From the IMG/VR virus record IMGVR_UViG_3300020220_000072, positions 1-52,857 of that record: 52,857 nucleotides of DNA; one strand, given 5' to 3'. Within the stretch, counting starts at the first letter, position 1. Each line of letters begins with the position of its first letter. Under the pieces are notes generated by a model. It had not been told where the DNA came from. It saw nothing but the letters and a program-made list of their open reading frames with translations, and did no database searches. Of the stretch, positions 2,643 through 26,745 are shown one piece after another. A program made the translations under genes and the position numbers. The stretch is from a virus.

Positions 2643-5600
2643 ATGATAAGCACCTCATCACAAAGAGTCAAGATTAGTCAGGTAGTTCAAAACCAACTAC
2701 CAGAATTTATTTTAAATGAAAATCCACTGTTTTCTGATTTTTTAAAAAGTTATTATACATCGCAAGATCATCCAGGTGGTCCAGCAGATCTTGCTGAAAA
2801 TTTAGATTATTACACAAAACTTGATTCTTTGGTTGGATCTGCTTTAAGTAGTTACACTAGATTAAGTTATAGAATAGAACCATATACTAAAACGATTGTA
2901 GTTAATAGTACAGCAGGATTTCCAGAATCTTATGGATTAATTAAAATTAATAATGAGATTATCACTTATACTGGATTGTCAGCGACTAATCCAAATCAAA
3001 CATTTAAAATTACTGTAGAAGGAAGTGAATTATCAAATGAAGATGTTAAATTTTTTGTTAATGGTGTAGAGTCTGGTGAATTGAATTTAAAGAAGGGTGG
3101 AACTTATATCTTTGATCAATCTGATTCAAGCAATGATGGATATGATCTCAAAATTTCAACAACTCAAGATGGAACTTGGAATGCCGGAATTGCTTATACT
3201 ACAGGAATTACAGTTACTGGTGTTCTTGGTGCAAACAGAAAAACAACATTTATTGTTCCAGAATCTGCTCCTAATAATTTTTACTTATACAGTCCTACAA
3301 TTTCCAACATGTATGGAAATTCCGCAATTAATGTTGAGGTATTGCGAAAAAACACTTTTACTGGATGTATAAGAGGATTCAGTGGAATTGAAAAATTATC
3401 CAGAACCAATGTACCAGAATCTTTATCTTTTACAAAAACTTCTGCTCAATCTCATACAGAAAATTCACTTGTACAAAACTTAAGTAGTTTATTTGCCAGG
3501 GAATTCTTTAAAAAATTAAAATCACTTTATGCTCCAGATTTTCAGGGAGTTGAATTTGATTCAGATTTAAATCATGTTCAATTTATAAAGCAAATCAAAG
3601 ATTTTTATTCTTCTAAAGGAACTAATGAAGCAATTAAAATTTTGTTTAGAGTTCTTTATGGTGTAGAATCTGATGTAATTAAGCCTCAAGACTTTTTAAT
3701 TAAAGCATCTGATGCTGATTATTTGACAACTAAAAAAATGGTTGTTCAACATGCGAATCCTCTTTATAGAGAAAGATCTGCAAGAGAATTAGTAAATGTT
3801 CCTGATATTAAAAGAATAGAAGGATCCTCGTTAATACAATCTGATCCTAGAGCTACAACTTCTATTTCTAGAGTTGATGAATTTAGATATAAAAATCAAA
3901 GTTATTATCTGCTCTCACTACCAAATGATGAAAATTTAAGTCAATTTAGAATTACAAAAAAAACTAGATTAACTTCACCATTATCTATAAATTCAAAAAC
4001 AATAACTGTAGATTCTACATTAGGATTTCCAAATAAAGGAAGTTTAATCGTCAATGGGCAAGATGTTGTTTCTTACACGGACAAAACATTTAATCAATTT
4101 TTAAATATTTCAAAAATAAGTAGATCGTATACAAATGGTGATGAAGTTTCTGAAATTATTGATACGTATGCTTATGCAGCAGATGATTCTTCATTAAAAA
4201 TTAATGTTCACATTACTGGAGTATTATCTGATTTTGACATTCCTTCAGATTATTCTTTATTGAGACCTGGAGATACAATCAAAGCAGGATCTCAAGGATT
4301 TATAAAAAATGAAAAAGATGTTCTATTTAATAGTTGGTTAGTTAATACCAGTGTTAATTATCAAATTAAAGAAATTGAATCTACAACATCTTTTGGAATT
4401 TATAATGTGATTACAAAATCAAGTCACACATTCAATGAAAAGGATGCTGTGGAAATTGTTTTTACAGATTTAACTACAAAATCATGTATTATTAACACAA
4501 TTACAAATTCAAATTCATTTTCTATTTCAGAAGCAGGAACTCTAAATTTAAATAAAATTTTATATATTAGAAGAAAAATTGCATTTGCAAATAGCAACAT
4601 TTATGAAAATGTCAAATCTTTTTCTGCGGATGTTCAAAATGTTTACGACAGTAATGGTGATGCATATGTTGCCTCTGGATCTATACCATCTTTAGGTGGA
4701 AAAATAATCTCAGCAAAGAATAGATCTGTATCTTGGACTGGAACAACTGTTGATGTAAATATTCAAGTTACAACAGGATCAGTTGATCATGGGTTTTATA
4801 GTGGGGAAATTGTCAAATATACATCAATCAATGGATCTTTAGGTAATTTGATAAGTGATAAAAATTATTATGTGAGAAGAATTAATTCAAATGAAATTAA
4901 TCTTGCAAATAGTCTTGTAGATCTTGCTAACGATAGATTTGTAAATGCTTCTGGATCTGGTACATTTAAATTACAAATTCCAAAATTTGTTGATAAACAA
5001 ATACAAACACAAAGATTTTTAAAAAAAATTCCACAAAATCCAAATTTTGATGGTGGATTTTATGAAACTACTCCAGGAACCATTGGAATTTTGATTAATG
5101 GTGTAGAAATCAAAAACTATAAATCATCTGATAAAGTTTATTTTGGGTCAATAAATTCTATAGAAGTTTTGGGTGGTGGAAAAGATTACGACGTAATCAA
5201 TCCACCAAAAGTAATTTTTGAAAGTGAAAATGGAGTTGATGCGTCAGCTATTTGTTGTGTTAAAGGAGAATTGAAGGAAATAGAAATTCTTGATCCAGGA
5301 TTTGATTATGTTTCCGAACCAAAAATTTCTATTTCTGGTGGAAATGGATTTGGAGCAACTGCTGAAGTTAGACTCGAATCATTTTCACATTCCATGAATT
5401 TTAATGCAGGATCAATTGATTTAACTAATAACTTAATAGGATTTTCTACATTTCATAAATTTGAAAATGGAGAGGATGTTATTTATAGATCATTTGGTCA
5501 GCAAGAAATTGGTATTGGAACGACAGGCACTTTAATAAACAATACAATTTATTATGTTTCTAGAGTTGGTCCAAGTAGTATTGCGTTATCAAATAATTCT

Positions 5601-8600
5601 ACTGATGCTATAAATCAAACAAATTTAATTGATTTGAGAGAGGTTGGAAGTGGCATACAAAGATTTGATAGCGTTTCATTAAAGAAAAGAATTGGAGAAA
5701 TTATTGTTACTAATTCTGGCAGTGGGTATGCAAATAAAAAAAGACTCATTGCATCTTCTGGAATTATAACTTCAACCAATACATTATTTTATAAAAATCA
5801 CAACTATAATGATGGAGATTTAGTTTTATACAAAACTACGGGTATTCCAATTGGAGGATTATCAAACAATAATTATTATCATGTAATTAAAATTAATGAA
5901 AATAATTTTAGATTATCTTTTGCAGGATCCACAGAACTCGATGTTTCTAGAACTAATTATATTACAAATCAATTCATTGGCATCTCATCAATTGGGTCCG
6001 GATCACACATATTTAATTATCCACCAATTTCAGTTTTAGTGTCTGGAGAAATTGGAATTAAAAAGTCAGATACAGAAGATTATTCATCTAAAATAAGACC
6101 AATATTCGGAGGATCAATTACATCAATTGATTTGGAAAATGTTGGAAAAGGATATGGATATAGTACGATTATAAACAACTCTAAAGCAGTAAATGTAAGA
6201 GTTTCTGCTGCAGGAACTCAAAGTTTTTATAAAGCAATTTTAGATAAAACTGGATCAATTGTAGATGTCATTATTACAAAAAAAGGTGCTGATTACACAT
6301 CAGCACCAAAACTTAAAGTCATTGGTGATGGAGTGGGTGCAGAATTAGTTGCAGTTTCTTCTGGTAGTAGCGTTACTGGAGTAAAAATTAAGAATGGTGG
6401 TGTTGGATATTCTACATCAAATTTTGTTATACAAGAAATTCTTCCTGGATCTGGCGCAAAATTTTTAGTTAACTTAAAATCTTGGACAGTCAATGATGTT
6501 AAAAGGTACGAAAATAGTTTTAATGAGGATGATTTATTTTTAGAAGAAGGTGATGAGGGAAGAGGAATTAAATTAACTGCTTTGTATTCTCCAAGGGAAC
6601 TTAGAAAAAATTTAAAGCAAAAAAATAGCGATGGCAGCATTAATTACACACAAAATGATCTTATTTTTAAAAATAATACAGAAAAAATATCAAATTCACA
6701 TTCACCAATTATAGGATGGGCATATGACGGAAATCCAATTTATGGTCCATATGGATATTCTAACAAAAATGGCGGTAATATAAAATTAATGGTATCTGGA
6801 TATTCATTGAAATCTGCTCGTATAGATGGTCCTCCAACTTCAACATTTCCTCTTGGGTTTTTTATAGAAGATTATGAATTTTTAAATAATGCAGATCTGG
6901 ATGAAAAAAATGGTAGATTCTGTATTACTCCAGATTTTCCAAATGGAACCTACGCATATTTTGCAACAGTTAATCAATCTTTAAGTACTAAAGGTGTTTT
7001 TAAAAACTATAGAGAACCTCAGTTTCCTTATTTAATAGGTGATAAATATGCAGCAAATCCTGATGAGTTTAATTTCTCTAAAAAAAATTCGCAATATTCA
7101 AACATAAATTTAAACAATTATCATAGAAATACCTATCACTATAAACTAAATGATAAATTTACTTTTTATGATGGAATTTATCAAAATAATTTAGAGGAGG
7201 AATCTGATGTTATATTCACTTCACTTGGAGAAATTGATAAAGTTAAGATTTTAAATTCAGGTGAAAATTATCAAATTAATGACAGACTAGTTTTGGATGA
7301 AAAAAGTATCAATAGTGGATCTGATTTTTCTGCAAAAGTAAAGGAAGTTATTGGTGCAAAAACAATCTCTATAGGATATACTGCAGTTGATGTTGAAAAC
7401 GTCGTCTTCACGTACGATAATTTTAGTGGTAATGTGACTGGGCATTCACAGTCTCCACATAATTTATCGAATGGTGATGTAATTTCTATTAGTGGTGTAT
7501 CAACGAATTCTTTAGATAATTTAAATGGACAGCATTTGATTAATGTGTCTGATTTAAACTATTCGCTTTCAATTGGAATCGGAACTACTGGACAAACAGG
7601 AATCGTAACATCAATTTCAGTAGTAGGTCCAAGTATAACAGACTTAAATAATGTATCTCCAAATGATGTATTATCATTTGGAAATGAACAAATGTTGGTA
7701 TTAAATATAGATGCTGCTAATAGTAAATTAAGAGTTTTAAGAAGATATAGTGGAACTGGAGGAACTTCTATTTCTGCTGGAAATAAATTAAAAGTTTCAT
7801 CCAAAAAAATTAATTTTAATTTAGGAATTAGCACTAATGTTGAAACATTTAGAAATCTTTCATATTATTTTAATCCAAAGGAACATGTAGCAATTGGCAC
7901 TGCTTTTGGTGTTGGAATTGGATCAACTATTGTATACACTCTTAATGTTCCAGGTAACATCGGAAGAGAAAGATTTATACCAACAAGAACGATCTACTTA
8001 GAAAATCATCAATTTACAACAGGACAAGCATTAACATATTCAAATGGGTCGGGATCATCAATAGTTGTATCAAATGGATCTACAACATTCTCTCTTCAAG
8101 ATAATTCAACAGTTTATGCAATTAAAGTTAGTTCAGATCTGTTAGGAATTTCTACAACCACTGTTGGAATTGGTTCAAGCGGAAAGGTAGAGGGCATTGG
8201 TGCTCCCGGAGTTCAATTAAGATTTACTTCTATTGGTTCTGGTCAATACCACAGTTTTACTCCTCTTAAACCAGAATTCAAAGGAACTGTAAAAAAAGTT
8301 GTTGCAACGGTTGTTTGTGATGAAGATCATAATCTTTCATTAAATGAAGATGTAAAAATTTCTTTAACTCCTGGGATATCGACAACATTTTATGTTAAAT
8401 ACGATCAAGATACAAAATTAACTACATTTAATGAAATTACATTCAATTCGTCAGCAATTAGTTTGGATCAAGGTAAAATAACAATTAATAGTCACAATTT
8501 AAATACGGGAGATAAAATTTTATATACAAGTGCAAATGAAGCATCTCCATTAAAAACTAAAAAGTCTTACTATGTCGTAAAAATTGATAAAAATAATTTT

Positions 8601-10448
8601 AAATTATGTGAAAACTATTATAAGGCAACAAAACAATTTCCAGAATTTATCAACTTTACTTCAATTGGAGGATCTAATCAAAAAATTTCTAAAATTAATC
8701 CACAATTAATAGCAGTTAAAGGAAATACCGTAGTATTTGATTTATCAGATTCATCACTGAGTCAATCATTATCTGGCAAAAAGATTGAGGTTTTTGATTT
8801 TAACTTATATAAAGATAAAAATTTCACAATTCCATATTATTCAAATAATACCGAAAATGAGAAGAATTTCAATGTGATTAAATTTGGACAAGTTGGTATT
8901 GGGTCTGCTAAAGTCAAGTTAGAAATTACTGAAAGTACACCAGAGCAATTATTTTATAGATTAGAACCAAAATCTATCAATCTAATCCAAGACTTATTTA
9001 AATCTCCATTGGTTGATAGAGATGTTATTAATTACTCATGTCTACAGTCAAAGCAAATTAGTTATTTCAATGTATTGGGAAAAGTCGTTGGAATTGGTTC
9101 TACAACATTCAAAATAAATCTTTTGGATGAACCAGAAAAAAATTCATACAGTCAAAATGAAGCTACTGTACTTAAATTTTCCACAAATTCTCCAAACATA
9201 AAGGGTCCTATAGAAAAAATTGAAATAGTTTCAAAAGGAAGAAATTATTTTTATCCTCCAGTGGTAGTTTCTGCTGGAAGTTCAAATAACAACACTGCTT
9301 TGATTGAACTTTTTGGATCTAATATTGGATTGTTAAAAAAATATAACTTAAAAAACGTTGGATTTAATTATTCAGCAGATTTAACTTTGAGACCATTTGC
9401 TATTTTTCCACAAGCAATAAAATTAAAATCTTTGTTAAAAGTTGTTGACGTATCTTTACTAAATGGTGGATCTAAATATACAGTTTCTCCAGACTTAATT
9501 GTTGTAGATTCTATAACAAATCAATCTATACCTGGATTTTTATTTCAAACTTCTCTGAATGGAACATCCATTACAGATGTAAAGATTTTACAGATTCCAC
9601 AAAATCTTTTTTCAATTCCTCCAAAAATTATAGCAACAAACAATTCAAATGGAGTGGGAGTTCAAACAGTATCATTTAATTCTTCATTGAGAAGAGTAAC
9701 ATTAAAACTTAATGAAACTTTTTCTAATACTAATTTTCCATTTTTTGTTGGAGATAAAATTTTTGTAGAAAACATTGGTATTGTGTCTACAGGAAATGGA
9801 TATAATTCATCAGATTATAACTATAATCTATTTTCAATCGTTGGTGTAAATACATCAAATAGTGAAATTTCATATATAATAAACAATCAATCACCAGGAA
9901 CTTTTAAATTTAGTGGTTCTTTTCCAAAAGTAATTTTGGAAGAAGATTTGCCAATAATTACTCCTATCACAGAAAAAACTAAATTTAATAAACAGGAAGA
10001 AATTTATGTAGGATCTTCAAACTATGGAAAAATAATTTCCATAGATGAAGATAACAATGTCGCTAAAGTGATTATGGAAGTTGCTCCTATAAAATCTGGT
10101 GATGTGTTAATAGGTCAATCTTCAAAATCTTCAGCAATCGTTAGTGATGCTAATTATATAGAATCTTTCTTTAAAGTGTCTTCATCGTCAAAAACTGTTG
10201 ATGGATGGCAAAGAGACACTGGAAAATTGAGTGATGAAGTGCAAAAAATACATGATAGCGATTATTATCAATTTTTCTCATACTCAATTAAAAGTTCAAT
10301 TCCAAAGTCAAAATGGCAAAATATTGTTGATGCTACAACACACTCTGTCGGATTTAAAAATTTTGCAGATCTTGAAATTATTTCTGTTCCGGAAAATAAA
10401 GCAACAATACAATCTGCACTTATTAAACAAGAACCGACTATTTTTTAG
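2643..10448 (+). CDS. giant modular baseplate/fibre protein with YHYH domain, 2601 residues
   Basis: This gene lies between gp6 and gp8, the slot of T4 gp7 (1032 residues), but is 2.5 times longer. Visible parts in order: an N-terminal anchor (about 1-330) with an early E-x-RG module near residue 100; repeated H-x4-G-[DE]-x-[VI]-x-Y units near 714, 936, 1051, 1787 and 1949; about nine GxGY units near 835, 878, 1018, 1157, 1206, 1246, 1531, 2189 and 2264; and a YHYH-type domain at about 1350-1450 (GWAYDGNPIYGPYGY, then NGRF and PNGTYAYF). A C-terminal segment (about 2510-2601) contains DSDYYQFFSYSIKSS, an ending I associate from memory with large cyanophage baseplate proteins. Virion location is inferred from synteny. 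It may combine gp7 scaffolding with receptor- or surface-contact modules. No frameshift interrupts the 7.8 kb frame. Confidence 0.8.
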   Translation: MISTSSQRVKISQVVQNQLPEFILNENPLFSDFLKSYYTSQDHPGGPADLAENLDYYTKLDSLVGSALSSYTRLSYRIEPYTKTIVVNSTAGFPESYGLIKINNEIITYTGLSATNPNQTFKITVEGSELSNEDVKFFVNGVESGELNLKKGGTYIFDQSDSSNDGYDLKISTTQDGTWNAGIAYTTGITVTGVLGANRKTTFIVPESAPNNFYLYSPTISNMYGNSAINVEVLRKNTFTGCIRGFSGIEKLSRTNVPESLSFTKTSAQSHTENSLVQNLSSLFAREFFKKLKSLYAPDFQGVEFDSDLNHVQFIKQIKDFYSSKGTNEAIKILFRVLYGVESDVIKPQDFLIKASDADYLTTKKMVVQHANPLYRERSARELVNVPDIKRIEGSSLIQSDPRATTSISRVDEFRYKNQSYYLLSLPNDENLSQFRITKKTRLTSPLSINSKTITVDSTLGFPNKGSLIVNGQDVVSYTDKTFNQFLNISKISRSYTNGDEVSEIIDTYAYAADDSSLKINVHITGVLSDFDIPSDYSLLRPGDTIKAGSQGFIKNEKDVLFNSWLVNTSVNYQIKEIESTTSFGIYNVITKSSHTFNEKDAVEIVFTDLTTKSCIINTITNSNSFSISEAGTLNLNKILYIRRKIAFANSNIYENVKSFSADVQNVYDSNGDAYVASGSIPSLGGKIISAKNRSVSWTGTTVDVNIQVTTGSVDHGFYSGEIVKYTSINGSLGNLISDKNYYVRRINSNEINLANSLVDLANDRFVNASGSGTFKLQIPKFVDKQIQTQRFLKKIPQNPNFDGGFYETTPGTIGILINGVEIKNYKSSDKVYFGSINSIEVLGGGKDYDVINPPKVIFESENGVDASAICCVKGELKEIEILDPGFDYVSEPKISISGGNGFGATAEVRLESFSHSMNFNAGSIDLTNNLIGFSTFHKFENGEDVIYRSFGQQEIGIGTTGTLINNTIYYVSRVGPSSIALSNNSTDAINQTNLIDLREVGSGIQRFDSVSLKKRIGEIIVTNSGSGYANKKRLIASSGIITSTNTLFYKNHNYNDGDLVLYKTTGIPIGGLSNNNYYHVIKINENNFRLSFAGSTELDVSRTNYITNQFIGISSIGSGSHIFNYPPISVLVSGEIGIKKSDTEDYSSKIRPIFGGSITSIDLENVGKGYGYSTIINNSKAVNVRVSAAGTQSFYKAILDKTGSIVDVIITKKGADYTSAPKLKVIGDGVGAELVAVSSGSSVTGVKIKNGGVGYSTSNFVIQEILPGSGAKFLVNLKSWTVNDVKRYENSFNEDDLFLEEGDEGRGIKLTALYSPRELRKNLKQKNSDGSINYTQNDLIFKNNTEKISNSHSPIIGWAYDGNPIYGPYGYSNKNGGNIKLMVSGYSLKSARIDGPPTSTFPLGFFIEDYEFLNNADLDEKNGRFCITPDFPNGTYAYFATVNQSLSTKGVFKNYREPQFPYLIGDKYAANPDEFNFSKKNSQYSNINLNNYHRNTYHYKLNDKFTFYDGIYQNNLEEESDVIFTSLGEIDKVKILNSGENYQINDRLVLDEKSINSGSDFSAKVKEVIGAKTISIGYTAVDVENVVFTYDNFSGNVTGHSQSPHNLSNGDVISISGVSTNSLDNLNGQHLINVSDLNYSLSIGIGTTGQTGIVTSISVVGPSITDLNNVSPNDVLSFGNEQMLVLNIDAANSKLRVLRRYSGTGGTSISAGNKLKVSSKKINFNLGISTNVETFRNLSYYFNPKEHVAIGTAFGVGIGSTIVYTLNVPGNIGRERFIPTRTIYLENHQFTTGQALTYSNGSGSSIVVSNGSTTFSLQDNSTVYAIKVSSDLLGISTTTVGIGSSGKVEGIGAPGVQLRFTSIGSGQYHSFTPLKPEFKGTVKKVVATVVCDEDHNLSLNEDVKISLTPGISTTFYVKYDQDTKLTTFNEITFNSSAISLDQGKITINSHNLNTGDKILYTSANEASPLKTKKSYYVVKIDKNNFKLCENYYKATKQFPEFINFTSIGGSNQKISKINPQLIAVKGNTVVFDLSDSSLSQSLSGKKIEVFDFNLYKDKNFTIPYYSNNTENEKNFNVIKFGQVGIGSAKVKLEITESTPEQLFYRLEPKSINLIQDLFKSPLVDRDVINYSCLQSKQISYFNVLGKVVGIGSTTFKINLLDEPEKNSYSQNEATVLKFSTNSPNIKGPIEKIEIVSKGRNYFYPPVVVSAGSSNNNTALIELFGSNIGLLKKYNLKNVGFNYSADLTLRPFAIFPQAIKLKSLLKVVDVSLLNGGSKYTVSPDLIVVDSITNQSIPGFLFQTSLNGTSITDVKILQIPQNLFSIPPKIIATNNSNGVGVQTVSFNSSLRRVTLKLNETFSNTNFPFFVGDKIFVENIGIVSTGNGYNSSDYNYNLFSIVGVNTSNSEISYIINNQSPGTFKFSGSFPKVILEEDLPIITPITEKTKFNKQEEIYVGSSNYGKIISIDEDNNVAKVIMEVAPIKSGDVLIGQSSKSSAIVSDANYIESFFKVSSSSKTVDGWQRDTGKLSDEVQKIHDSDYYQFFSYSIKSSIPKSKWQNIVDATTHSVGFKNFADLEIISVPENKATIQSALIKQEPTIF

Positions 10449-10449
10449 T

Positions 10450-10457
10450 AATAAATA
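10450..10457 (+). promoter_or_regulatory. late promoter-like site AATAAATA
   Basis: One mismatch from the T4 late consensus TATAAATA. It begins directly after the stop of the 2601-residue gene and lies 20-27 bases before the small gene at 10477, the usual distance for a gp55-dependent late start. No -35 element is expected for this class. Confidence 0.55.
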
Positions 10458-10476
10458 ATTAAAAGTCGGCGGTTCA

Positions 10477-10620
10477 ATGGAAGAAGACATTTTTATTATA
10501 GAAGAAAATACTCAAGTTAGTAGTAAAATTGAACTTGATACTGTTATTTCAGTCAATCACCGTATTGACTTTGATTTTTGTGCTGAAAATACTATAAACA
10601 TTTTGACTCAAAATCAGTGA
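10477..10620 (+). CDS. small acidic hypothetical protein, 47 residues
   Basis: ATG at 10477 and TGA at 10618-10620 give 47 residues beginning MEEDIFIIEEN and rich in Glu, Asp and Ile. It fills the only gap between the two giant genes, sits just behind a late promoter-like site, and ends 11 bases before the next ATG. The ribosome binding site is weak (GGCGGTT upstream). No family is recognised. The alternative is that the stretch is only a 5' leader of the 1489-residue gene; the unbroken frame filling exactly the gap makes coding more likely. Confidence 0.5.
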   Translation: MEEDIFIIEENTQVSSKIELDTVISVNHRIDFDFCAENTINILTQNQ

Positions 10621-10631
10621 GGTAAATTTCA

Positions 10632-13600
10632 ATGTCATTTAAAAAAATTTCAAATGAAATTTATCTAGAAAATAAAGTTGTTAGTGATTATATAGAATGT
10701 ATTACTAATAGAGTTATTCCTATTGATGACATAAGTTTTGCCTTTAGGGATGAATCCAGACTTACAAATTTTTCTATTTTAGATAGTATAGATTTAAATT
10801 TATTTGATTCTATTAAGTATTATTTTTTAATTTATAACGTTAGATTTACTGGAGAAAGTCAATTAATTCAAATAAATTTTACCCATGATGGAGTAAATGG
10901 ATTTTTAGTTCCATTCGGAAGAATAGAATCGTTATATGATCTAGGAAATTTCGAATTTAGTCTTTCAGAAACATCATCAAATACCGGACAATTACTTTTT
11001 TATCCATCAAATCCAATTTTCAGTAGTTATTCAATTCGATCTGTAAAAATACCATTTTTAAGCAATGTTGGAGTTGGCACTACTGGAATAACTATTGGAA
11101 ATTCGTTTAGTATTCAATCAACCAATACTGGTATCACTTCTTCAGTTTCTCCAACTCCAGTTGGAATTGTATCATTCTCTGCATCCGAATTTACATCTTC
11201 AAAATTTTCTATTCAAGTTAAAGATTTAGAAAACACATCAATAAAACAATTTAATGAATTTATTTTAGTTCAAGATGGTGCATCATCGATTCTCCATAAT
11301 TTAGATTATGGGACAATTAATACAGATAATCCACTGTTTGAATCATCATCAATTGGTCTCGGAACATTTGGATCATCTATTTCTGGTGGAAATGTATTTT
11401 TAGAATTTACTCCAATTGAAAATAAAACCCTCAGTGTAAGCGTTTTTCAAACATCAATTGATAGTTCTAAAACTGGAATAAGTAGTTTAGCAATTGGTGA
11501 AGCAAAGTACTTAACCTCATATACATCAATAGCATCCACCTCATCACCTATACCAACAAGATTAAGTGGATTTAGCAGTTCAATTTATAATGCTGCCGAT
11601 TATTTCATAGAAATTAAAAATGTAACCGATAGTACATTTGAATCATCTCAGATTTTACTATTGCATAATACATCTAATATTTTTTATAGTGAATTTGCTA
11701 ATGTATCTACTTCATCTGGAATTGGATCTTTTTCAGCACAATTTAATGGATCTGAGGTCGAACTTTTATTTACACCACCACAAAATAAAGCAGTAGAAGC
11801 AAGAATAATTCAATTAAATTTACCCAATCAATCATCAGTAGGAATTACATCCTTTCAAAATAATCAAATACAAAGTTTTGATGCAACATACCTCGCATCA
11901 AATGATGATACTTCAAGAACATTTAATTTAAAACATAAAGGAGATGACCTTTTTTATAAGGAATTTGTAGGATCTAGTTCAACCGTAGTTGATACCACAA
12001 ATGATGTAATCACGATCAAAAATCACTTTTTTACTACCGGAGAACCAATTTTATATTTGCCACCAAAAGATATTGCTACTGCATCTTTAATTCAAAATGC
12101 TAGAATAGGTATAGCAACGACATCAATTGCTGGTATAGGAACAACAGATAAACTTCCTTCAAATTTATATGCTGTAAAAATTTCCGAAACTAAGTTCAAA
12201 GTTGCAGACACTGCAGAAAAGGCACTTGCTATTCCACCAATAACAATTGATATTTCAAATTTAGCACCAATCACAGATTTAAAGCATTCATTTGAAAGCT
12301 CAGTAAACGCTACAACAAAATCAATAATTTCTATTGATAATACAATTCAGTCTCCACTTACCAAAACAAATTTATCATTTAGTTTGGGTGAAAATATTAC
12401 TGATTTCCAACCATCATTTTCTGTTGTTGGTGTGGTATCATTTTTTGCAGGTGATTTGTTAAGAATTGAAGAAGAATACATGAGAGTTAAAACCATTTTT
12501 GAAAATGTCGTAAATGTTGATAGAGGATGGCTTAATTCCACATATTCACCACATTCAATTGGTTCAACCATAACAAAATACATCGGTGACTATCTAATTG
12601 CTAAAAATAAAATTTCATTTTCAGATCCTCCCAAAGGATTAAAAGGATTTTCTGGCATTCAAACATCTTCTTCATTTGCTGGTAGAGTATTTTTTAGGCA
12701 AAATTCTGAGGATTCATCAACACAATCATACGCAGAAAATTATCTTTTTGATAATATTGCTGAGCAATTTAATGGAGTTACTAAAATTTTCAATTTGACA
12801 GAAGATCAACAAAATGTAACTGGAATTTCAACTTATGGTGGAATTATTTTAATTAATCAAGTTCTACAACATTCTCCAGAAAATTATGTTTTGGGTGAAA
12901 ATAGTGGAATCACTACAATAACATTTGTTGGCACAGCTTCCTCAACAAACTACGATGTAAATACAGCAAGCATTCCAAAAGGTGGAATTATAGTATCTGT
13001 GGCAAGTAGTGTTTCTTATGGATATCAATCATTAGTTGCAGCTGGTGGCACGGCAATTATTTCTGGCATTGGATCAATTTCATCTATTTCGATAGGAAAT
13101 AGTGGATCTGGTTATAGATCTGGTATACAAACTAGTGTCATAGTAAAAGCAATAACAAATTCTGGTATTATTACTGTTGGAAATGCAAACGTTTCATCCG
13201 GTATAGTTACTTCAGTAACTATAACAAATGCAGGAAGTGGATATACATCTTCAAATCCACCAAAAATTGTAATAGATGATCCTCTTCCATATGCAAATTT
13301 ACCTTTAATAGGCAGTGCAACAGGAATTGGTGGTTCAGTGTCTATTGTTGTCGGATCTGCTTCAAGTATTGTTAATTTCGAAATAACAAACTATGGAAGT
13401 AATTATAAAGTTGGAGATGAATTAACCATAGAATCTGGAGGATCTGTTGGTGTTCCAACAGATCCTATAGTTGGAGTTGCTTTCTCTTCATTTAGATTGT
13501 CTGTAACCAGAACTTATGATGATTCATTTAGTGGATGGAGTCTTGGAGAACTTTTAAGATTAGATTCAATTTCTGATCAATTTGATGGAATGGAAACTGT

Positions 13601-15136: not shown

Positions 15137-16693
15137 ATGCCTGCAATTATTACTGATCAATTTCGTATTAAAAGTGCAGAATCTTTTGTTTCAGGTATCA
15201 CTGGAATAGGTTCTACTTCTAATAATTATTATTTGTGGATTGGGTTGCCAAATTCCTCAGAAATTTCAGCAACATGGGACGATAATCCACCAGCACCAAA
15301 GGATGCAATTGCTGAAGAAAATGATTATTGGGATACAATGATGGCATTAAAAAAAATTAATGCCGATGATGTAGTCAGAGTAGTAAGAAAGAATGTTTGG
15401 AGGTCTGGAACATTTTATGACTATTATAGACATGATTATAGTAGAACAAACTTATCCAATGTGACCTCGGCAACAAATTTGTATAGTGCAAATTATTATG
15501 TTGTAAACTCCGACTATAGAGTATATATTTGTCTACAGAATGGGACTGATCCAGAAAATCCTCTTGGCAGACCTTCTTTAGATGAACCAACATTCACTGA
15601 TTTAGAACCAAGGTCTGCTGGAACTAGCGGTGATGGATACATTTGGAAATATCTTTATACTATTAAGCCGAGTGAAATTATAAAGTTTGATTCAACAAAT
15701 TTTATGCCAGTTCCAAATAATTGGGAAACTGGGGCACAATATCAAGCAGTAAGGAATAATGCTTTAGATAGTGGTCAAATTAAAATTATTACAATTAAAA
15801 ACCGTGGAGTTGGATATGGAACTGCTGCAACATACAATAATGTGCCTATTAGTGGAGATGGTAAAGATGCCACATGTTCAGTTATTGTTAATAGCGCAGG
15901 AACCATTGATGCAGTAGAAATTACAAATGGTGGAGTTGATTATACATTTGGAACCGTTGATTTAGATGTTGCAGGAATTACTAATGGTGGATCTACTGAT
16001 GCTGAGATGGAAGTTATTATTCCACCATCTCAAGGGCATGGATATGATGTTTACAAAGAACTCGGAGCATATCGGGTTTTAATTTATTCTAGATTGGAGA
16101 ATGATACTTTAAATCCAGATTTTATTGTTGGAAATCAATTTTCAAGAGTAGGAATAGTGAAAAATCCTATTGCATATAATTCTACCGAATTATTAAATTT
16201 ATCAAAGGCAAGTTCTGTCTATGCATTAAAGTTAAGTGGATCAAATGTTACTACAACATCTTTCACTCCAGACTCATACATTCGTCAAACAGTTGGATCT
16301 GGAGTTACTGCTGTTGGTAGAGTTATTTCATGGACATCATCTACAGGTATTTTAAAATATTGGCAAGATAAAAAATTGGCAAGTGGTGCTACGGCAACAT
16401 ATGGGTATAAATTACAAAGATTTACATCTTCACCAGAATCTGGTGGAAATACTACAATTTTAGGTGGATCTAATAGTTTAACAATTGACACAAATTTTGG
16501 AACAACATCAGAACCAGGTATTAAAACTACAATAAATAGTAAGACATATTATTTGGGTCAAGGTTTTGTTAATGGAATTGCAAATCCAGAAGTTAAAAAG
16601 TATAATGGTGAAATTGTTTATGTTGACAATCGTGCAGCAGTAACTAGATCTTCCACACAAAAAGAAGACATCAAAATTGTATTGGAATTTTAA
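15137..16693 (+). CDS. gp8: baseplate wedge subunit gp8, enlarged
   Basis: The 518 residues compare with 334 for T4 gp8, a wedge protein that bridges gp6, gp7 and gp10 as a dimer. The N-terminal 200 residues look like the family: WIGLPNSSEIS, WDDNPPAPKDA, an R-[KN]-x-W region, then YICLQNG and SGDGYIWKYLYTIKPSE, which is highly conserved in cyanophage gp8. Residues about 213-290 are extra and contain two GxGY units (IKNRGVGYG and ITNGGVDYT), and the C-terminal part has a V-x-SWTSSTG segment like one in gp14. The end, REDIKIVLEF-like, returns to the gp8 pattern. No Shine-Dalgarno is visible; the start was chosen by the conserved MPAIITDQFRIKSA N-terminus. The next gene begins six bases downstream. 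Confidence 0.9.
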   Translation: MPAIITDQFRIKSAESFVSGITGIGSTSNNYYLWIGLPNSSEISATWDDNPPAPKDAIAEENDYWDTMMALKKINADDVVRVVRKNVWRSGTFYDYYRHDYSRTNLSNVTSATNLYSANYYVVNSDYRVYICLQNGTDPENPLGRPSLDEPTFTDLEPRSAGTSGDGYIWKYLYTIKPSEIIKFDSTNFMPVPNNWETGAQYQAVRNNALDSGQIKIITIKNRGVGYGTAATYNNVPISGDGKDATCSVIVNSAGTIDAVEITNGGVDYTFGTVDLDVAGITNGGSTDAEMEVIIPPSQGHGYDVYKELGAYRVLIYSRLENDTLNPDFIVGNQFSRVGIVKNPIAYNSTELLNLSKASSVYALKLSGSNVTTTSFTPDSYIRQTVGSGVTAVGRVISWTSSTGILKYWQDKKLASGATATYGYKLQRFTSSPESGGNTTILGGSNSLTIDTNFGTTSEPGIKTTINSKTYYLGQGFVNGIANPEVKKYNGEIVYVDNRAAVTRSSTQKEDIKIVLEF

Positions 16694-19600: not shown

Positions 19601-22600
19601 GGTGACTTTTTTACAGCATCAAGTTATGCAGAAAGTGATAGAAAGTATCTTGCTCTCGAAACGGTTCTTCCAAAAAAACAAGATTCTTTAATAGACATTA
19701 GACCTAGAGTATCTGATTATTCATTATCATCTTCATTCTCACCATTCGATTTTGATGGAAGATCTTTTACTTCTCCTGGAGCAAGCATTTCAGATCCTCT
19801 CTCAAACGATGAATATTTAATTTTAGACTATGATTACTATCTTTCTAGAATTGATAAAGTATACATTGATAAAGACGGAAAATTTTTACATCAAAAAGGT
19901 AGTTCTGGATTAAATCCTTCTGCACCAAAAAGTCTAGATGAAGCATTAGAATTAGCAACATTGGAAATTCCTGCTTACACTTATTCTGCATCTGATGTTG
20001 TAGTATCAAAAACTCCACATAAACGATATAGAATGTCAGATATTGCTAAGTTGGAGGATAGAATTTCAAACATTGAATACTATACACAATTAAGTTTGCT
20101 AGAAACTGAGACTGCAAATTTAAAAATAACTGATGCATCTGGATTAGACAGATTTAAATCAGGATTTTTTGTAGATAACTTTAGATCTCATGAGAGTCAT
20201 GATTTATCACATCCAGATTTTGAGGCATCCATTGATAAAACAAATGGAGAATTGAGACCATCACACTATACTACTGCTATTGACTTATTAGTTGGATCAG
20301 AGTCTTTAATAGGAATAGGAAGCACTGCAAATCCAGATGTAGATGCCAACTTTATTAATGACATTGATGGATCAAATATTAAAAAGAGTGGAAGAATTTT
20401 AACACTTAATTATACTGAAGTTCCTGTAGTTACTCAAAGATATGCATCAAGAGTTGAAAATGTAAATCCATTTTTGATTGTCTTCTATCAAGGAACATTA
20501 GAATTAAGTCCCCAATCTGATGTATGGATTGATCAAAAACGAATTTCTGCATTAAATCCACAGTTAACTAAATTTTATGACGATACAATTAAGGAATTAG
20601 GAGTAAATCCACAAACTGGATTTGCTCCTACGGAATGGGGATCATGGGAAACTTATTGGTCTTCAACAAAAGTAACTAACACAAGAGAAGTACCAGGATC
20701 TAGACTAACTTCAACCAGTACTTTTGAATGGGCTAATGACCGGGGCTCAGGGATTACGCGAACGGAAGCTATTGATCTCATGAAACAAAGTGGAATTCTT
20801 CTCCCTATTTCTAATAACACTTTTATTCCATGGGTTGGAAGACGTGGTGAAACTGACATAAGAACTACCACAGCATTAATTGAAACTACAAATACTACAA
20901 CGACCAAACAATCAAGAGATGGAATTCAAACTCAAGTAACACCTTCTATAGAAACAGTAAATCTTGGAGACAGAATCGTAAGTAGAGATATTATACCATA
21001 CATGCGTTCTAGAAATATTGAATTTAGAATTAGTAGATTAAAACCAAGTACAAGATTTTATGTATTTTTTGATGGCATTGATGTTACAAAGTATTGTACT
21101 CCCAAATTTATAGAAATTTCAATGAGATCTGGAAGTTCTCCTTTCAGAATTGGTGAAATTGTGGAAGCAAAATTAGACATTGATGGAGATAAAAAATTAG
21201 ATTTGATGACTTTTAGAGTTGCTCATCCTCAGCATCTTGAAGGTCGTTATAATTCACCAACAGATTTTGTTGGAGATAATCCCTACAATGATGGAACTTC
21301 AATTGGCAATGTTTATACATCAACATCAAATGTTTTGAATGTAGACATTTTCAGTCTTTCTAGTCAAATTACAGAATTTAATGGATATTTGGTAAAAGGT
21401 ATAAAATTAAGAGGTAAAACAAGTGGTGCTGAAGCAACTGTTAGAAATTTAAGATTGATTAGTGATGATGTTGGGGATTTGTATGGAAGCTTATTCATTC
21501 CAAATCCAAATTTACCAGGAAATCCAAGATGGGAAACTGGATCAAAAACAATAAGATTTACAACAAGTCCCACAAATTCAAAAGTTGGTGGAATTGTTCA
21601 AAGTTCTGCTGAAGCAACTTTCTATTCTCAGGGAGAGCAGGATACTGTTCAGCAGACAACTTTGAGCGTTAAATTGCCAATTGTAGAGCAGATTCAAAGA
21701 CAAGATACTAGAACAATAACTACAACTGATAAGAAAGTAGAAAGAGACATTGTAGCACAATCATCAACGACTTACTATGATCCCCTTGCACAATCATTTG
21801 CAGTTGATGAAGCAACTGGAATATTTGTAACATCTGTTGATGTTTACTTCAGAACAAAAGATACTAAATTACCTGTATCTTTACAAATTAGGGAAATGAG
21901 AGGTGGTACTCCAACCACTACAATTTTACCATTCTCGGTGGTAAAAATGATGCCAAATAAAATAAATGTTTCTGAGAATGCATCTGTTCCAACTAAATTT
22001 ACATTTAGTTCTCCAGTTTATCTCAAAGGACCAAATGTTGAATATGCGGTTGTTTTAGTATCACCATCAGATAAGTATGAAGCTTGGATTTCTAGAATGG
22101 GGGAAATTGACATCTCCACACTTAATCAACCAAATAGAGGTCAGTTGGTTATTACTCAACAACCTTATCTTGGATCTTTATTCAAATCTCAAAATGGATC
22201 TACTTGGGATCCAAGTCAATTGGAAGATTTGAAATTAACAATTTATAAAGCTCAATTCGACATTACACCAGGAATTGTTAGATTCTATAACCCAAAGTTG
22301 CACAAAGGAAATAAGCAACTAATTCAATTAGACAATAATCCAATTCAAACTTTATCAAGAAGAGCAGTTGTTGGATTAGGAACAACTTTTATAAATGGAG
22401 ATTTAGTTCCTGGTGTAACGGTTTCTCAACAGGGAAATACAACTGCTAAAGGTATTTTGGTTTCAACTGCGAGTGCTGTTGCCACTGGATCTACATCTTT
22501 AATCATAACCAATGCTGGAATTGGTTATACACCATCATCTGGAACAGAAACCTTTAATAATATTTCTTTAGTTGTAGTCAGAAATGCAAATGAAGAATCT

Positions 22601-24268
22601 ACAACTTCAGAAAGAGGATCTAATTTGGTTGGAATTGTCACGGTAACTAATGGTATTGTGAGTGGAGTTACAGTAACTGAAGGTGGTAAAAACTTTGTTA
22701 TTGGAGACGTTGTTGGAATTTCATCAATAGGTGATGGTAATGGATCTGGAGCAAGATTTTCTGTTGGAATTATTTCCGCATCAAATGCAATTGTTCTCAA
22801 AGACATTCAAGGTGAATTTAACATAGGAATTAATACAGTTAGTTTTACTGATCCTGATACTTTAGTGAGTTCTGCTGTCACCACAAATTGCTTAATACAG
22901 ACAATTGATTATAGCAGTAATTCTGACGGATTACATTTCAAGGTTAAGCATAGATCTCATGCAATGCATTCCTTTGCAAATTTAGTTGAAATTTCTGACA
23001 TTGATTCTGATGTTCCATCAACTAGAGTAACTCAAGAATACTCTATTAATTCTACAGAAAGTTTAAATGTAACTTCAACTTCAAATTTCACTACATTTGA
23101 AGGAATCGGAGTTGGTGCTACAAATCCAGGATACGTTTTTGTGGATGGTGAAATCATAAGTTATACTGGGACAACAGCAACATCTCTCACTGGAATTACT
23201 AGAGGAATTGATTCGTCTTCTAGAGCAACACACGAGGTAAATTCAACCGTCTTTAAATATCAATTTAGAGGTGTTTCTTTAAGAAGAATTAATAAAACTC
23301 ATAACATGACTTTTACTACTGTTCCAGATGCAATAGATCTTGATTTTTATCATGTAAAAGTTGACATGTCAACAAATGGAACTAATAGATCTTCTGGTGT
23401 TGGTTTTCCAAAACTTTACTTTACAAGAACTGGATCTGGTGGTGGAAATACTGTTTATGCATCTCAAAACATGCAGTTTGAAACCTTGACTCCCAATATT
23501 CAAACGATGCTTCCATCTGGAACAAATATTTCAGGAAGAGTTAGAACTATTAGTGCAACAAGTGTTGATGGAATTGAAGAATCATTTGTTGATCAAGGAT
23601 TTACAGAAATAAATCTCACATCACAAAATAATTTCCCAACACCAAGAATGATTGCATCAAGAGTAAATGAAGATTTTCACCTATCATCTCTTCCTGCAAA
23701 TAAATCAATAACTATGGAATTAATTATGACTTCTAATAATAGGAACATTTCTCCAGTTATAGACTTAGATCGAGTAAGTGTTATAACAACAACAAATAGA
23801 TTAAATGATCCAATAGTTGATTTCGCATCAAATGAATTGATTAGACTTAATGGACAAGATCCATGCATAGCTTCTTATGTTAGCAAAATTATAACTTTGG
23901 AAAATCCAGCATCGTCCCTAAAAGTATTACTTTCTGCAGTTTGTCCTGCAACAAGTGATATTAGAGTGATGTACAAAATTCAAAGAGTTGGATCTACAAC
24001 ACCATTTGATAATGAAATTTTTAGATTATTCCCAGGATATGACAATCTTAATTTTGAAGGAAACATTGAAAGAATTGAAAAATCTGATGGATTGCCAGAT
24101 TTACGTCCACGTTCTACTGGTTTACAGGGTGTGAGATATACTGATCATGCCTATAGTGCGAATCCACTTCCACCTTTTACAAAATTCCAAATTAAAATTG
24201 ACATGACTGGAACAAATCAAGCTGCTCCACCAAAGATTAAAGATCTTAGAACAATCGCATTGGCATAA
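16700..24268 (+). CDS. giant DUF4815-type tail/baseplate protein, 2522 residues
   Basis: The N-terminus (NLNNSPYFDDFN, then GLPVQSRELTTLQSILQNQ) is that of the DUF4815 family of phage tail proteins, and this domain with its insertions covers roughly residues 1-560. Repeated segments with a G-E-x-[IV]-x-G and SGA-T/A-x-V pattern follow. Near 1680-1850 comes a block with YYDPLAQSF, shared by many large tail proteins. Two GxGY units lie near 1932 and 1987 and an E-x-RG module near 2150 (DGEIISYTG, then GITRGID). The last 250 residues form a compact domain with NPLPPFTKFQIKIDMTG. The gene follows gp8 directly and overlaps the next gene by one base (TAATG). It occupies the gp9-gp12 position of T4; a fibre-bearing baseplate role is inferred. 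Confidence 0.82.
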   Translation: MPQETNLNNSPYFDDFNRDNEYYRVLFKPGLPVQSRELTTLQSILQNQIEQFGKHFFKEGSKIIPGNLTYDNEFYAVQIEPTSSGIDVELYLNQLVGKQIQGLSSGVTATVRKVLSSADSERGTNTLYIQYRGSNSTNQSIREFSNAEQLVCTSLIRFGLRSIPANQPFATTISSNATSIASAMSVGDGVYFVRGTFVEVQKQTILLDQYSPNPSYRVGFDVVERIVTADEDPKLNDNAQGFSNYTAPGADRLKISLIFSKRSLESFEDKDFVEIARVEDGILQSFKKDTQYSLIRDELAKRTFDESGDYYIKPFDVFVKESLNDREGSRGVYLPSQKTDQGNTPSDNLLAVEISPGKAYVKGYDIEKIASSILDVPKARDTKQVKNLTVGINCGTDILLNNVYGSASIGIGTTAKVELLSNRMVGSSYHSTGIPIGEARVYDFNLNKVSYLNQATPFKISLFDIEVYTQLELNSNISLNESDFIEGNRSGASGFVVSATSNSKTVKLTSTVGEFYRNEQIKINGIINSRIILKAIDYNINDVKALRSSVGIVTFSADTSLSKEKSLNIQNSSTYFITKTGSNSGIITAPTRVFSGIVTSGDILSYRISGLKVPTFNVVTGISTDGDTINVSGVSTIANVCDGAVQAGTINNLVLSSPLIDEGDNSLTTPLPHNNIKDVDITSSQIQIRKRFDNLTISLSSFTTPSAGTDLLFQPFTIDRYFISYDDGTIENLTPDKFSISENKKTVTFKGLSKSTGKADLLATLLKNKIRLKEKTLQKASTLVLTRSQLTSSKNSVDGLTFNRIYGTRIQDQKISLNVCDAVELLGVFESDSNSNPDLPGCVLTSFTGPTANTSGVLIGEKIIGENSDAVAIIAEKPSLSSVGFVYLNNNVFSVGEKVTFENSGITALVSSCSKGDKNITNYYSLSTGIQPTFYDYSYITRKKDSPIPSRRLKIVFNHFIVEQSDNGDFFTASSYAESDRKYLALETVLPKKQDSLIDIRPRVSDYSLSSSFSPFDFDGRSFTSPGASISDPLSNDEYLILDYDYYLSRIDKVYIDKDGKFLHQKGSSGLNPSAPKSLDEALELATLEIPAYTYSASDVVVSKTPHKRYRMSDIAKLEDRISNIEYYTQLSLLETETANLKITDASGLDRFKSGFFVDNFRSHESHDLSHPDFEASIDKTNGELRPSHYTTAIDLLVGSESLIGIGSTANPDVDANFINDIDGSNIKKSGRILTLNYTEVPVVTQRYASRVENVNPFLIVFYQGTLELSPQSDVWIDQKRISALNPQLTKFYDDTIKELGVNPQTGFAPTEWGSWETYWSSTKVTNTREVPGSRLTSTSTFEWANDRGSGITRTEAIDLMKQSGILLPISNNTFIPWVGRRGETDIRTTTALIETTNTTTTKQSRDGIQTQVTPSIETVNLGDRIVSRDIIPYMRSRNIEFRISRLKPSTRFYVFFDGIDVTKYCTPKFIEISMRSGSSPFRIGEIVEAKLDIDGDKKLDLMTFRVAHPQHLEGRYNSPTDFVGDNPYNDGTSIGNVYTSTSNVLNVDIFSLSSQITEFNGYLVKGIKLRGKTSGAEATVRNLRLISDDVGDLYGSLFIPNPNLPGNPRWETGSKTIRFTTSPTNSKVGGIVQSSAEATFYSQGEQDTVQQTTLSVKLPIVEQIQRQDTRTITTTDKKVERDIVAQSSTTYYDPLAQSFAVDEATGIFVTSVDVYFRTKDTKLPVSLQIREMRGGTPTTTILPFSVVKMMPNKINVSENASVPTKFTFSSPVYLKGPNVEYAVVLVSPSDKYEAWISRMGEIDISTLNQPNRGQLVITQQPYLGSLFKSQNGSTWDPSQLEDLKLTIYKAQFDITPGIVRFYNPKLHKGNKQLIQLDNNPIQTLSRRAVVGLGTTFINGDLVPGVTVSQQGNTTAKGILVSTASAVATGSTSLIITNAGIGYTPSSGTETFNNISLVVVRNANEESTTSERGSNLVGIVTVTNGIVSGVTVTEGGKNFVIGDVVGISSIGDGNGSGARFSVGIISASNAIVLKDIQGEFNIGINTVSFTDPDTLVSSAVTTNCLIQTIDYSSNSDGLHFKVKHRSHAMHSFANLVEISDIDSDVPSTRVTQEYSINSTESLNVTSTSNFTTFEGIGVGATNPGYVFVDGEIISYTGTTATSLTGITRGIDSSSRATHEVNSTVFKYQFRGVSLRRINKTHNMTFTTVPDAIDLDFYHVKVDMSTNGTNRSSGVGFPKLYFTRTGSGGGNTVYASQNMQFETLTPNIQTMLPSGTNISGRVRTISATSVDGIEESFVDQGFTEINLTSQNNFPTPRMIASRVNEDFHLSSLPANKSITMELIMTSNNRNISPVIDLDRVSVITTTNRLNDPIVDFASNELIRLNGQDPCIASYVSKIITLENPASSLKVLLSAVCPATSDIRVMYKIQRVGSTTPFDNEIFRLFPGYDNLNFEGNIERIEKSDGLPDLRPRSTGLQGVRYTDHAYSANPLPPFTKFQIKIDMTGTNQAAPPKIKDLRTIALA

Positions 24269-24545: not shown

Positions 24546-25379
24546 ATGGCACAACCAAACAGTAGATCTGGTCTGATAGATTATGTAAAGAGGCAACTTG
24601 GTTATCCAGTTTTGGAAATCAATATTGCTGACGAACAGTTTGATGATTTGTTGGATGATGCCATTCAATTTTTCCAAGAAAGACACTTTGATGGTGTCGA
24701 ATTAATGTATTTAAAACATGTTCTCACTGAAGGAGACATTGTTAGGGGTAGAGGTTCTGGAAATGCTGGTATTACTACAACAACAGCAACATCAACAATT
24801 GTTGGCACTGCTACAACATTTTCCTTTCAAGAAAATTCCAATTACATTGAAGTTCCACCATCAGTAATAGGAATTAATAGAATTTTTAAAGTTGACACAA
24901 GTACAGTATCGGATGGATTATTCAATATTCGATATCAATTATTTTTAAATGATCTCTACTACTTTAGTTCAGTAGATTTATTGCATTATTCAATGGTTAA
25001 AACTTATCTATCAGACATTGAGTGGTTACTAACTCCTGAAAAACAAATAAGATTCAATAAAAGACAAGATAGATTATATATTGATACCGATTGGGAAAGA
25101 TTGAAAGCAGGGGATTACTTAGTCATTGAATGTTATAGAATTTTAGATCCTGCAGACTTTACTAGAGTTTATAATGATTCATTTTTAAAACGATATTTAA
25201 CTGCAACCGCAAAAAGACAATGGGGGCAAAATCTTATTAAGTTTAATAACGTTTCTCTTCCTGGAGGAATTACATTGAATGGAAGACAAATTTATGAGGA
25301 TGGACAAAGAGAACTTGATGCTCTTATGGAAAAAATGTCTTCTACCTATGAATTACCACCACTTGACATGATCGGATAA
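24546..25379 (+). CDS. gp13: neck protein gp13 (head completion)
   Basis: The 277 residues compare with 309 for T4 gp13. gp13 and gp14 form the neck below the portal and are needed to seal filled heads before tail joining. The N-terminus (SRSGLIDYVKRQLGYPVLEI, then FDDLLDDAIQFFQERH) is the strongly conserved gp13 segment; a second conserved block, LKRYLTATAKRQWGQNLIKF, is near residues 215-235, followed by GGITLNGRQIYEDG. A short Thr-rich insertion (about 76-92) with a GTATT pattern resembles peptides in the giant proteins. No Shine-Dalgarno is visible (TTTAAAAAACG upstream). gp14 starts five bases after the stop. Confidence 0.93.
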   Translation: MAQPNSRSGLIDYVKRQLGYPVLEINIADEQFDDLLDDAIQFFQERHFDGVELMYLKHVLTEGDIVRGRGSGNAGITTTTATSTIVGTATTFSFQENSNYIEVPPSVIGINRIFKVDTSTVSDGLFNIRYQLFLNDLYYFSSVDLLHYSMVKTYLSDIEWLLTPEKQIRFNKRQDRLYIDTDWERLKAGDYLVIECYRILDPADFTRVYNDSFLKRYLTATAKRQWGQNLIKFNNVSLPGGITLNGRQIYEDGQRELDALMEKMSSTYELPPLDMIG

Positions 25380-25383
25380 TAAA

Positions 25384-26745
25384 ATGTTAAATCCATTTTT
25401 TACGCAGACTAGTCAAACAGAACAAGGTTTAGTTCAGGATCTGGTAAATGAACAGATTAAAATGTTTGGAATTGAGTGTCTTTACATTCCAAGAAAATTT
25501 ATTACTACAAAAACTATAATTGAAGAGGTTATTCAATCAAAATTTGAACAAGCATTTCCGATTGAAGCCTACGTAAATACTTTTGATGGATTTTCTGGTC
25601 AAGGAGATATTCTTTCCAAATTTGGATTAATGCAAAAAGATGAATTGGTATTAACAATCTCAAGAGAAAGATTTGAAATGGTTGTCGGTCCTTTTTTGGA
25701 TGAAAGCATTGACAAATATATTAGAGTTAGACCAAAAGAAGGTGACATAATTTATTTTCCACTATCTAAAAATTTCTTCGAAATAAAATTTGTAGAACAT
25801 GAAAAACCATTTTATCAATTAGGAAAACTTTACACTTATGAATTAAAATGCGAATTATTTGAATACGAGGATGAACTTATTGATACTGGAAATGAAGAAA
25901 TTGACACTGTAGTTAAAGATGAAGGATATGTTGCAAAACTAATTTTAACTGGAATTGGAAGCACTGCAACAGCATTCACTGGAATAGTAAATGGTGCAAT
26001 TCGTAATTTATTTGTTCAATATAGTGGTTATGGATATAGATCTTCACCAAATGTTTCAATCGGAACTGCTCCATCTGGAGGAATTAATGCGACAGCTATT
26101 GGAATAATTACTTCAAAATCATCTGGCATCAGCACATCCTCATCTATTCATAAAGCATTTTTAATCAATCCAGGTAGAGGATACGTTGGAATTCCAACAG
26201 TTACTGTTTCTGGAACTGGTATTATAACCGCAGGAATTTCAACACAAGGTTCAATTGGAATTGTTACAATTTCATCTGGAGGTAATAGTTACGTGACTGC
26301 ACCCACAGTAACTTTCTCGTCACCAAATGTTGGGTGGGGTATAACTGCAACCGGAGAAGCAGTTGTTAGTAGTGCAGGAACGATAAATCAAATTCGTATT
26401 CTTAATTCTGGACTGGGATATTCATCTGCTCCAACAATTACAATTGGTGCTGCTACTACTGTAGGAGTTGGAACGTTTATTATAAATGAAAAAATTATTG
26501 CTCAAACTTCTGGAGCAACTGCAAGAGTAAAATCTTGGACAAAATCATCAGGAATTTTAGAAATTGGGATTGTGAGCGATCATAAATTTAAACTTGGAGA
26601 ACTTATTAAAGGAGAAAAATCTGGTTCTTTATATTCTGTTAAACAAATTGTTTATGATAATGTAGAGGAAGATAACGACGATATTGAAACTGCAGCAGAT
26701 GAAATTTTAGATTTTTCCGAAAAAAATCCTTTTGGAACTTACTAA
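25384..26745 (+). CDS. gp14: neck protein gp14 with a GxGY-repeat insertion
   Basis: The 453 residues compare with 256 for T4 gp14. The first 185 residues follow the family (NPFFTQTSQTEQGLVQDLVN, IPRKF, FGLMQKDEL, then YQLGKLYTYELKCELFEYED). Residues about 195-400 are an insertion with four consecutive GxGY units (near 205, 257, 295 and 335), each shaped like hydrophobic-x-hydrophobic-x3-G-x-G-Y-x3-P-x3-I. The C-terminal 75 residues return to a conserved tail ending FSEKNPFGTY. The insertion lies between two conserved parts in one intact frame, so it is a domain gained by a neck protein and not a fusion error. It could project from the neck like collar whiskers; that is inference. Confidence 0.9.
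   Translation: MLNPFFTQTSQTEQGLVQDLVNEQIKMFGIECLYIPRKFITTKTIIEEVIQSKFEQAFPIEAYVNTFDGFSGQGDILSKFGLMQKDELVLTISRERFEMVVGPFLDESIDKYIRVRPKEGDIIYFPLSKNFFEIKFVEHEKPFYQLGKLYTYELKCELFEYEDELIDTGNEEIDTVVKDEGYVAKLILTGIGSTATAFTGIVNGAIRNLFVQYSGYGYRSSPNVSIGTAPSGGINATAIGIITSKSSGISTSSSIHKAFLINPGRGYVGIPTVTVSGTGIITAGISTQGSIGIVTISSGGNSYVTAPTVTFSSPNVGWGITATGEAVVSSAGTINQIRILNSGLGYSSAPTITIGAATTVGVGTFIINEKIIAQTSGATARVKSWTKSSGILEIGIVSDHKFKLGELIKGEKSGSLYSVKQIVYDNVEEDNDDIETAADEILDFSEKNPFGTY

Follow-up and report, generated by a model that had tools for sequence, protein, structure and literature searches.

A GxGY unit of about 39 residues inserted in variable numbers into phage neck and tail proteins

Several Ig-like domains have been described as additions to phage structural proteins. 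The Big_1, Big_2 and FN3 domains found on the tail tube proteins of YSD1, T5, lambda and SPP1 are often dispensable, and weak carbohydrate contacts have been proposed for them (PMC8718954); for phage Ig-like domains such contact is called unverified by the review itself (PMC8718954). A further case is Dpo31, the tailspike depolymerase of Cobetia phage Carin-1 (PDB 28lx, 28mg, 8ck1). Whole Dpo31 is trimeric, and its domain D3* (residues 434-536) is described as Ig-like, protruding from the beta-helix, monomeric when alone in solution and distantly similar to sugar-binding domains (PMC13317679). In T4, gp7 is a monomer and gp8 a dimer, and gp13 and gp14 form hexameric neck rings (PMC3004832).

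Here we describe a block of about 39 residues, the GxGY unit, of which varying numbers have been inserted into several proteins of the tail and neck in phages of marine and freshwater bacteria. It was analysed in "the window", the complete 52,857-nucleotide stretch of IMG/VR virus record IMGVR_UViG_3300020220_000072.

Definition of the GxGY unit

After profile iteration the unit has 39 columns, with the consensus AAttaivsssGsIssititNgGsGYtstPtVtIsgppgg, and the unit family is defined here by this searchable profile. The shorter motif proposed in the first-pass annotation is real in its core: the pattern [ILV]x[ILV]xxxGx[GD][YF] has 16 matches in the five proteins concerned, where 500 composition-preserving shuffles gave 0.40 on average and 5 at most, and none across the window's other 9221 residues. 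The full unit is longer than that motif.

Glycine, serine and threonine are abundant in these proteins, and the resemblance might reflect convergent low complexity. This was addressed with a first profile of 42 columns, built from the gp14 units and gp14 homologues alone. It scores 19.3 and 10.6 bits on the units of gp8, 26.0, 20.5, 16.3 and 14.5 bits on those of the 1489-aa ORF, and 18.1, 10.5, 9.8 and 9.3 bits on those of the 2601-aa ORF, whereas the top score over 100 shuffled windows is 8.3 bits and reversed proteins reach at most 1.7 bits. Convergence to low complexity is rejected by this shuffle test, and we regard it as extremely improbable. Because these cross-protein matches exceed those in all shuffled windows, the proposal that a single repeat type occurs in wedge and neck proteins stands. 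When the gp14 repeat region is searched against the window's own record, gp8 (1e-7), the 1489-aa ORF (7e-7) and the 2601-aa ORF (1e-4) are found.

With the 39-column profile, matches above the shuffled maximum (>9.7 bits) number four in gp14, two in gp8, five in the 1489-aa ORF and four in the 2601-aa ORF; in the 2522-aa ORF none exceeds it. Across 50 diverse units, conservation is seen at the GxGY and proline positions. The unit falls within no Pfam or NCBIfam family, and no Pfam Ig-like family is matched at E values up to 1. The profiles of PHROG families 460, 438, 2885 and 701 include the unit region and cross-match one another's proteins, but these families are whole-protein descriptions, and none of them isolates or names the unit. 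No description of the repeat was found in the literature searched, subscription papers being outside that search.

Units and adjoining domains in gp7, gp8 and gp14

The 2601-aa and 1489-aa ORFs correspond to positions 114-2459 and 2512-3360 of phrog_2885, respectively. Because they fill successive parts of this family, which in P-SSM2 is represented by one ORF of 5195 aa, they are gp7 in two pieces. The split is common to the close relatives L086, L087 and L099 and is not seen in L088, L104 or P-SSM2. The gap between the halves (10449-10631) contains a 47-codon ORF (10477-10620); it has no Rfam match and no unusual fold, and the idea of an intron or RNA element was therefore dropped. A YHYH domain (PF14240, E 4.5e-26) is located at 6681-6980 (residues 1347-1446 of the N-terminal half).

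Each unit position was scored in homologues, which were counted if above background. The units of gp7 are as follows, with bit scores and homologue counts.

5145..5222, plus strand: N-terminal half, residues 835-860, moderate unit (7.8 bits; 7 of 24 homologues)
5244..5348, plus strand: N-terminal half, residues 868-902, strong unit (26.9 bits; 24 of 25)
5688..5732, plus strand: N-terminal half, residues 1016-1030, partial unit (11.6 bits; 6 of 26)
6111..6170, plus strand: N-terminal half, unit at residues 1157-1176 (11.9 bits with a pair profile derived from gp8; 13 of 34)
6249..6323, plus strand: N-terminal half, unit at residues 1203-1227 (15.8 bits, pair profile 23.2 bits; 32 of 37)
6348..6419, plus strand: N-terminal half, unit at residues 1236-1259 (11.8 bits; 24 of 42)
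9441..9500, plus strand: N-terminal half, residues 2267-2286, moderate unit (7.0 bits; 20 of 54)
13041..13121, plus strand: C-terminal half, unit at residues 804-830 (18.6 bits; 45 of 55)
13191..13283, plus strand: C-terminal half, unit at residues 854-884 (24.3 bits; 36 of 57)
13344..13445, plus strand: C-terminal half, unit at residues 905-938 (17.2 bits; 29 of 72)
14247..14360, plus strand: C-terminal half, unit at residues 1206-1243 (28.7 bits; 65 of 71)
14403..14510, plus strand: C-terminal half, unit at residues 1258-1293 (31.0 bits; 51 of 60)

The corresponding features of gp8 and of the 2522-aa ORF are listed next.

15752..16027, plus strand: gp8, two-unit module, residues 206-297 (units 212-230 and 245-270; 12.2 and 24.0 bits; profile match to Dpo31 D3*)
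16199..16471, plus strand: gp8, small beta-barrel, residues 355-445 (F1-ATPase-barrel-like with a weak Z of about 4; hhalign to the gp14 barrel 94%)
22493..22732, plus strand: 2522-aa ORF, two doubtful units, residues 1932-2011 (6.3 bits, below the shuffle maximum; 4 of 94 and 15 of 95 homologues above background)

The 2522-aa ORF (16700-24268) carries DUF4815 (E 1.3e-67) and lies between gp8 and gp13, where P-SSM2 has PSSM2_113.

For gp14, the features are:

25384..25896, plus strand: head-closure core, residues 1-171 (PDB 9mkb and 9lu4, E 3e-26; Z 10.1)
25924..25950, plus strand: first strand of a small barrel, residues 181-189 (AlphaFold model; 9f4a_A0 residues 761-846, Z 8.1)
25963..26079, plus strand: unit 1, residues 194-232 (34.2 bits; strands 196-202, 205-213, 223-226)
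26128..26223, plus strand: unit 2, residues 249-280 (27.6 bits; strands 237-247, 250-262, 273-275)
26224..26334, plus strand: unit 3, residues 281-317 (27.4 bits; strands 280-286, 290-298, 309-311)
26347..26457, plus strand: unit 4, residues 322-358 (38.9 bits; strands 323-328, 334-341, 352-354)
26470..26655, plus strand: remainder of the small barrel, residues 363-424 (kept in the unit-free gp14 of S-PM2 and P-SSM4)

Approximately 22 units in five different proteins had been proposed for the window, and about 18 to 20 of them stand. All four in gp14, both in gp8 and all five in the 1489-aa ORF are backed by homologues. For the 2601-aa ORF, about seven positions are firm or moderate, and there is poor or no support for those at residues 1540, 2199, 2240 and 2384. 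Both in the 2522-aa ORF are weak. As two of the five ORFs are halves of gp7 and the 2522-aa case is weak, the proteins concerned are gp7, gp8 and gp14.

The core of gp14 matches T4_neck-protein (PF11649, E 1.8e-34). In an AlphaFold2 model made with 48 gp14 homologues, residues 190-420 have pLDDT values of about 75-92, similar to the unit region of gp8. Each of the four gp14 units is modelled as two successive strands, the GxGY turn and a short strand, and we read the two strands as a predicted hairpin. The second gp8 unit is modelled with the full hairpin, the turn and the short strand in the order seen in gp14; the first is modelled without the first strand. Local structure is thus predicted to be alike in both proteins. 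Fold searches with the gp14 repeat region alone gave no convincing PDB match. Those with gp8 residues 216-297 returned the T4 sheath protein gp18 (Z 5.9), a likeness which we treat as a common arrangement.

The gp14 unit array interrupts the small barrel (residues 181-189 and 363-424). This barrel resembles the small barrels of eIF2-gamma and F1-ATPase with middling Z values, and a domain of 9f4a chain A0 with Z 8.1; to judge from its length (1031 residues), that chain is probably the gp7 counterpart. In gp8, residues 360-445 show a weaker likeness to these barrels, and a profile alignment of the gp14 barrel with that of gp8 has a probability of 94%. The small beta-barrel is a second module common to gp14 (25924-26655) and gp8 (16199-16471). 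The barrel of Kyanoviridae gp14 is not matched by profile in T4 gp14.

Copy number in gp14 and distribution among phages

Among 351 gp14 sequences (97 non-redundant), collected with chosen queries so that class frequencies are not natural frequencies, the unit count is 0, 2 or 4; lone cases of one and three are truncated contigs. The gp14s of S-PM2 and P-SSM4 consist of core and barrel with zero units, and those of T4, KVP40 and Vi01 also have none. Syn9 gp14 has two units, placed between GEEIVG and AEVKSW, and in the window and in P-SSM2 the four units are found ahead of GTF.xNE, which is another loop. When the tree is built from the core only, the four-unit gp14s form one clade (support 100/97), across which the array is maintained (51 non-redundant gp14s), and the P-SSM4-type zero-unit gp14s are nested inside the two-unit group (support 87/96). 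At least three class changes are needed. Because the count varies between 0, 2 and 4, two loops are used and a zero-unit group lies inside a two-unit group, this comparison of sequences shows that the units are accessory in the neck. It also upholds the proposal that they were inserted, as relatives within the cyanophage family differ in number and site.

The variation bears on two alternatives. Under the first, the units would be near-neutral, promiscuous domains spread by recombination among surface loops and having no single function. The variable number, the two insertion sites and the patchy spread over unrelated phages and protein types are in line with this, but the conserved GxGY and proline positions and the retention of four units throughout their clade speak against it, and we consider it rather improbable.

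Under the second, which is a serious rival, the units would be structural staples which let gp7, gp8 and gp14 reach neighbouring virion proteins and stabilize a neck and baseplate of larger size; the host would not be contacted. In favour of this, most of the units are in wedge and neck proteins and not in receptor-binding tips. The gp7 of cyanophages is very large (5195 aa in P-SSM2, with unit-bearing ORFs of 6076 aa in Syn9 and 7312 aa in P-SSM4), and the profile of the unit-bearing gp8 aligns with every Kyanoviridae gp8 tested. Ring contacts are contributed by certain Ig-like or inserted beta-sandwich domains of phages (YSD1 domain2, lambda gpV; PMC8718954). Yet the gp14s of S-PM2 and P-SSM4 work without units, the latter in a clade nested among two-unit relatives, the insertion site varies between clades, and isolated D3* is a monomer (PMC13317679). 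Staples therefore seem unlikely to us, though a good deal less so than near-neutral spread.

Searches with the unit profile, with E limits differing between searches, gave 16 matches in P-SSM2, 13 in S-PM2, 26 in P-SSM4, 21 in Syn9 and 27 in Syn30, and further ones in pelagiphage HTVC008M (3), Sinorhizobium phage phiM12 (2), Carin-1 (1), Carin-5 (2) and Syn5 (1). The single unit of Syn5, a T7-like cyanophage, is in a 170-aa open frame (NC_009531, 42649-42762, E 2.8e-5). There was no match in T4, KVP40, RB49, Vi01, PAU, P-SSP7, HTVC010P, Nostoc A1 or lambda. In a tblastn search of phages, the gp14 repeat region reaches E 1e-3 only with gp14s of Synechococcus and marine phages. The expectation that the repeat is present in cyanophages but not in T4 holds for T4, the whole genome of which has zero unit matches, but is not supported as a clean rule: many cyanophage gp14s are devoid of units, and a Sinorhizobium phage and Cobetia phages have them. 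The matches in P-SSM2 include two genes annotated as tail fibres and the gene of the hub lysozyme. Other carriers are tail fibres and tailspikes.

The unit-carrying tail fibres and tailspikes are in general trimers. Dpo31 is a trimer as well, and a common trimer-building job had been suggested. As gp7, gp8 and gp14 of T4 are monomeric, dimeric and part of hexameric rings, respectively (PMC3004832), and isolated D3* is monomeric (PMC13317679), such a job is disfavoured and we judge it very unlikely.

A solved relative and the possible role of the units

In a search of 177,635 PDB sequences, Dpo31 is matched independently by the gp8 profile (residues 445-505, E 0.019) and the gp14 profile (residues 444-544, E 0.038). 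It receives 19.2 bits from the unit profile and 21.3 bits from the pair profile, whereas the best of 1000 shuffled proteins reach 6.2 and 8.5 bits, respectively. Although each match is marginal singly, the two profiles agree and 19-21 bits compare with at most 8.5 in shuffled sequence, so we accept the relationship as one between sequences. The link comes from the longer gp8 and gp14 profiles and not from the 39-column unit profile alone, which gave only short chance matches to glutathione reductase among PDB sequences. When the complete models of gp8 and gp14 were used in fold searches, D3* was not among the matches at the unit regions; the Ig-like assignment therefore rests on the sequence profiles and on the Dpo31 paper (PMC13317679).

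Because the unit matches a surface domain in a solved structure from another marine virus, it suggests a removable surface add-on rather than a part of the basic machine. Our preferred, still tentative reading is that the units are exposed, exchangeable Ig-like decoration domains, probably with weak surface contacts. One GxGY unit would be half of a small beta-sandwich domain, and a pair would probably form one Ig-like domain, as in D3*. Such domains would have been inserted into exposed loops of virion proteins that were functional beforehand. They would have entered gp7, gp8 and the gp14 small barrel, and in P-SSM2 the hub lysozyme protein and tail fibres as well. Most likely they would serve to add beta surface to the exterior of the neck and baseplate, and this surface may contact the host envelope, or other parts of the virion, weakly and with low specificity, as proposed for other phage Ig-like domains. 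A surface or ligand role, as raised in the first-pass annotation, is possible.

Several points weigh against decoration domains. Contact with the host is not usually made by neck and wedge proteins, and the D3* matches are individually marginal. In addition, a strict pair rule fits complete gp14s (0, 2, 4) and gp8 but fails in gp7, where runs of one and three units are frequent. A bolder version, in which one mobile surface module colonized the neck, wedge, hub and fibre proteins of Kyanoviridae and turned the outside into an adhesive coat with its density tuned by unit number, is speculative, and we give it slightly less credence than near-neutral spread.

Cyanophages have neck and baseplate proteins far larger than their T4 counterparts, and the unit and the small barrel explain a visible part of the extra mass in gp14 and, partly, in gp7 and gp8. 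The unit's profile can be used in searches, a homologue has been solved, and the natural relatives carrying 0, 2 or 4 units lend themselves to a comparison of adsorption and stability.

The window's gp14 and gp8 are T4-type proteins, their cores being orthologous to those of T4, and the T4 versions are without units. As with Big_1, Big_2 and FN3, beta domains have been added to working structural proteins, and gp14 with its 0, 2 or 4 units shows the variable presence among relatives that marks dispensable decoration domains. Unlike those domains, the units are tandem GxGY elements without a Pfam Ig-like match, and they are internal to neck and wedge proteins instead of C-terminal on tube proteins. 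Dpo31 D3* differs in that it sits on a podovirus beta-helix tailspike and has a single pair; the available part of its description neither names the repeat nor draws a cyanophage link (PMC13317679). It resembles gp8 in having two GxGY units of equal order and spacing within an inserted, protruding domain of a virion protein.
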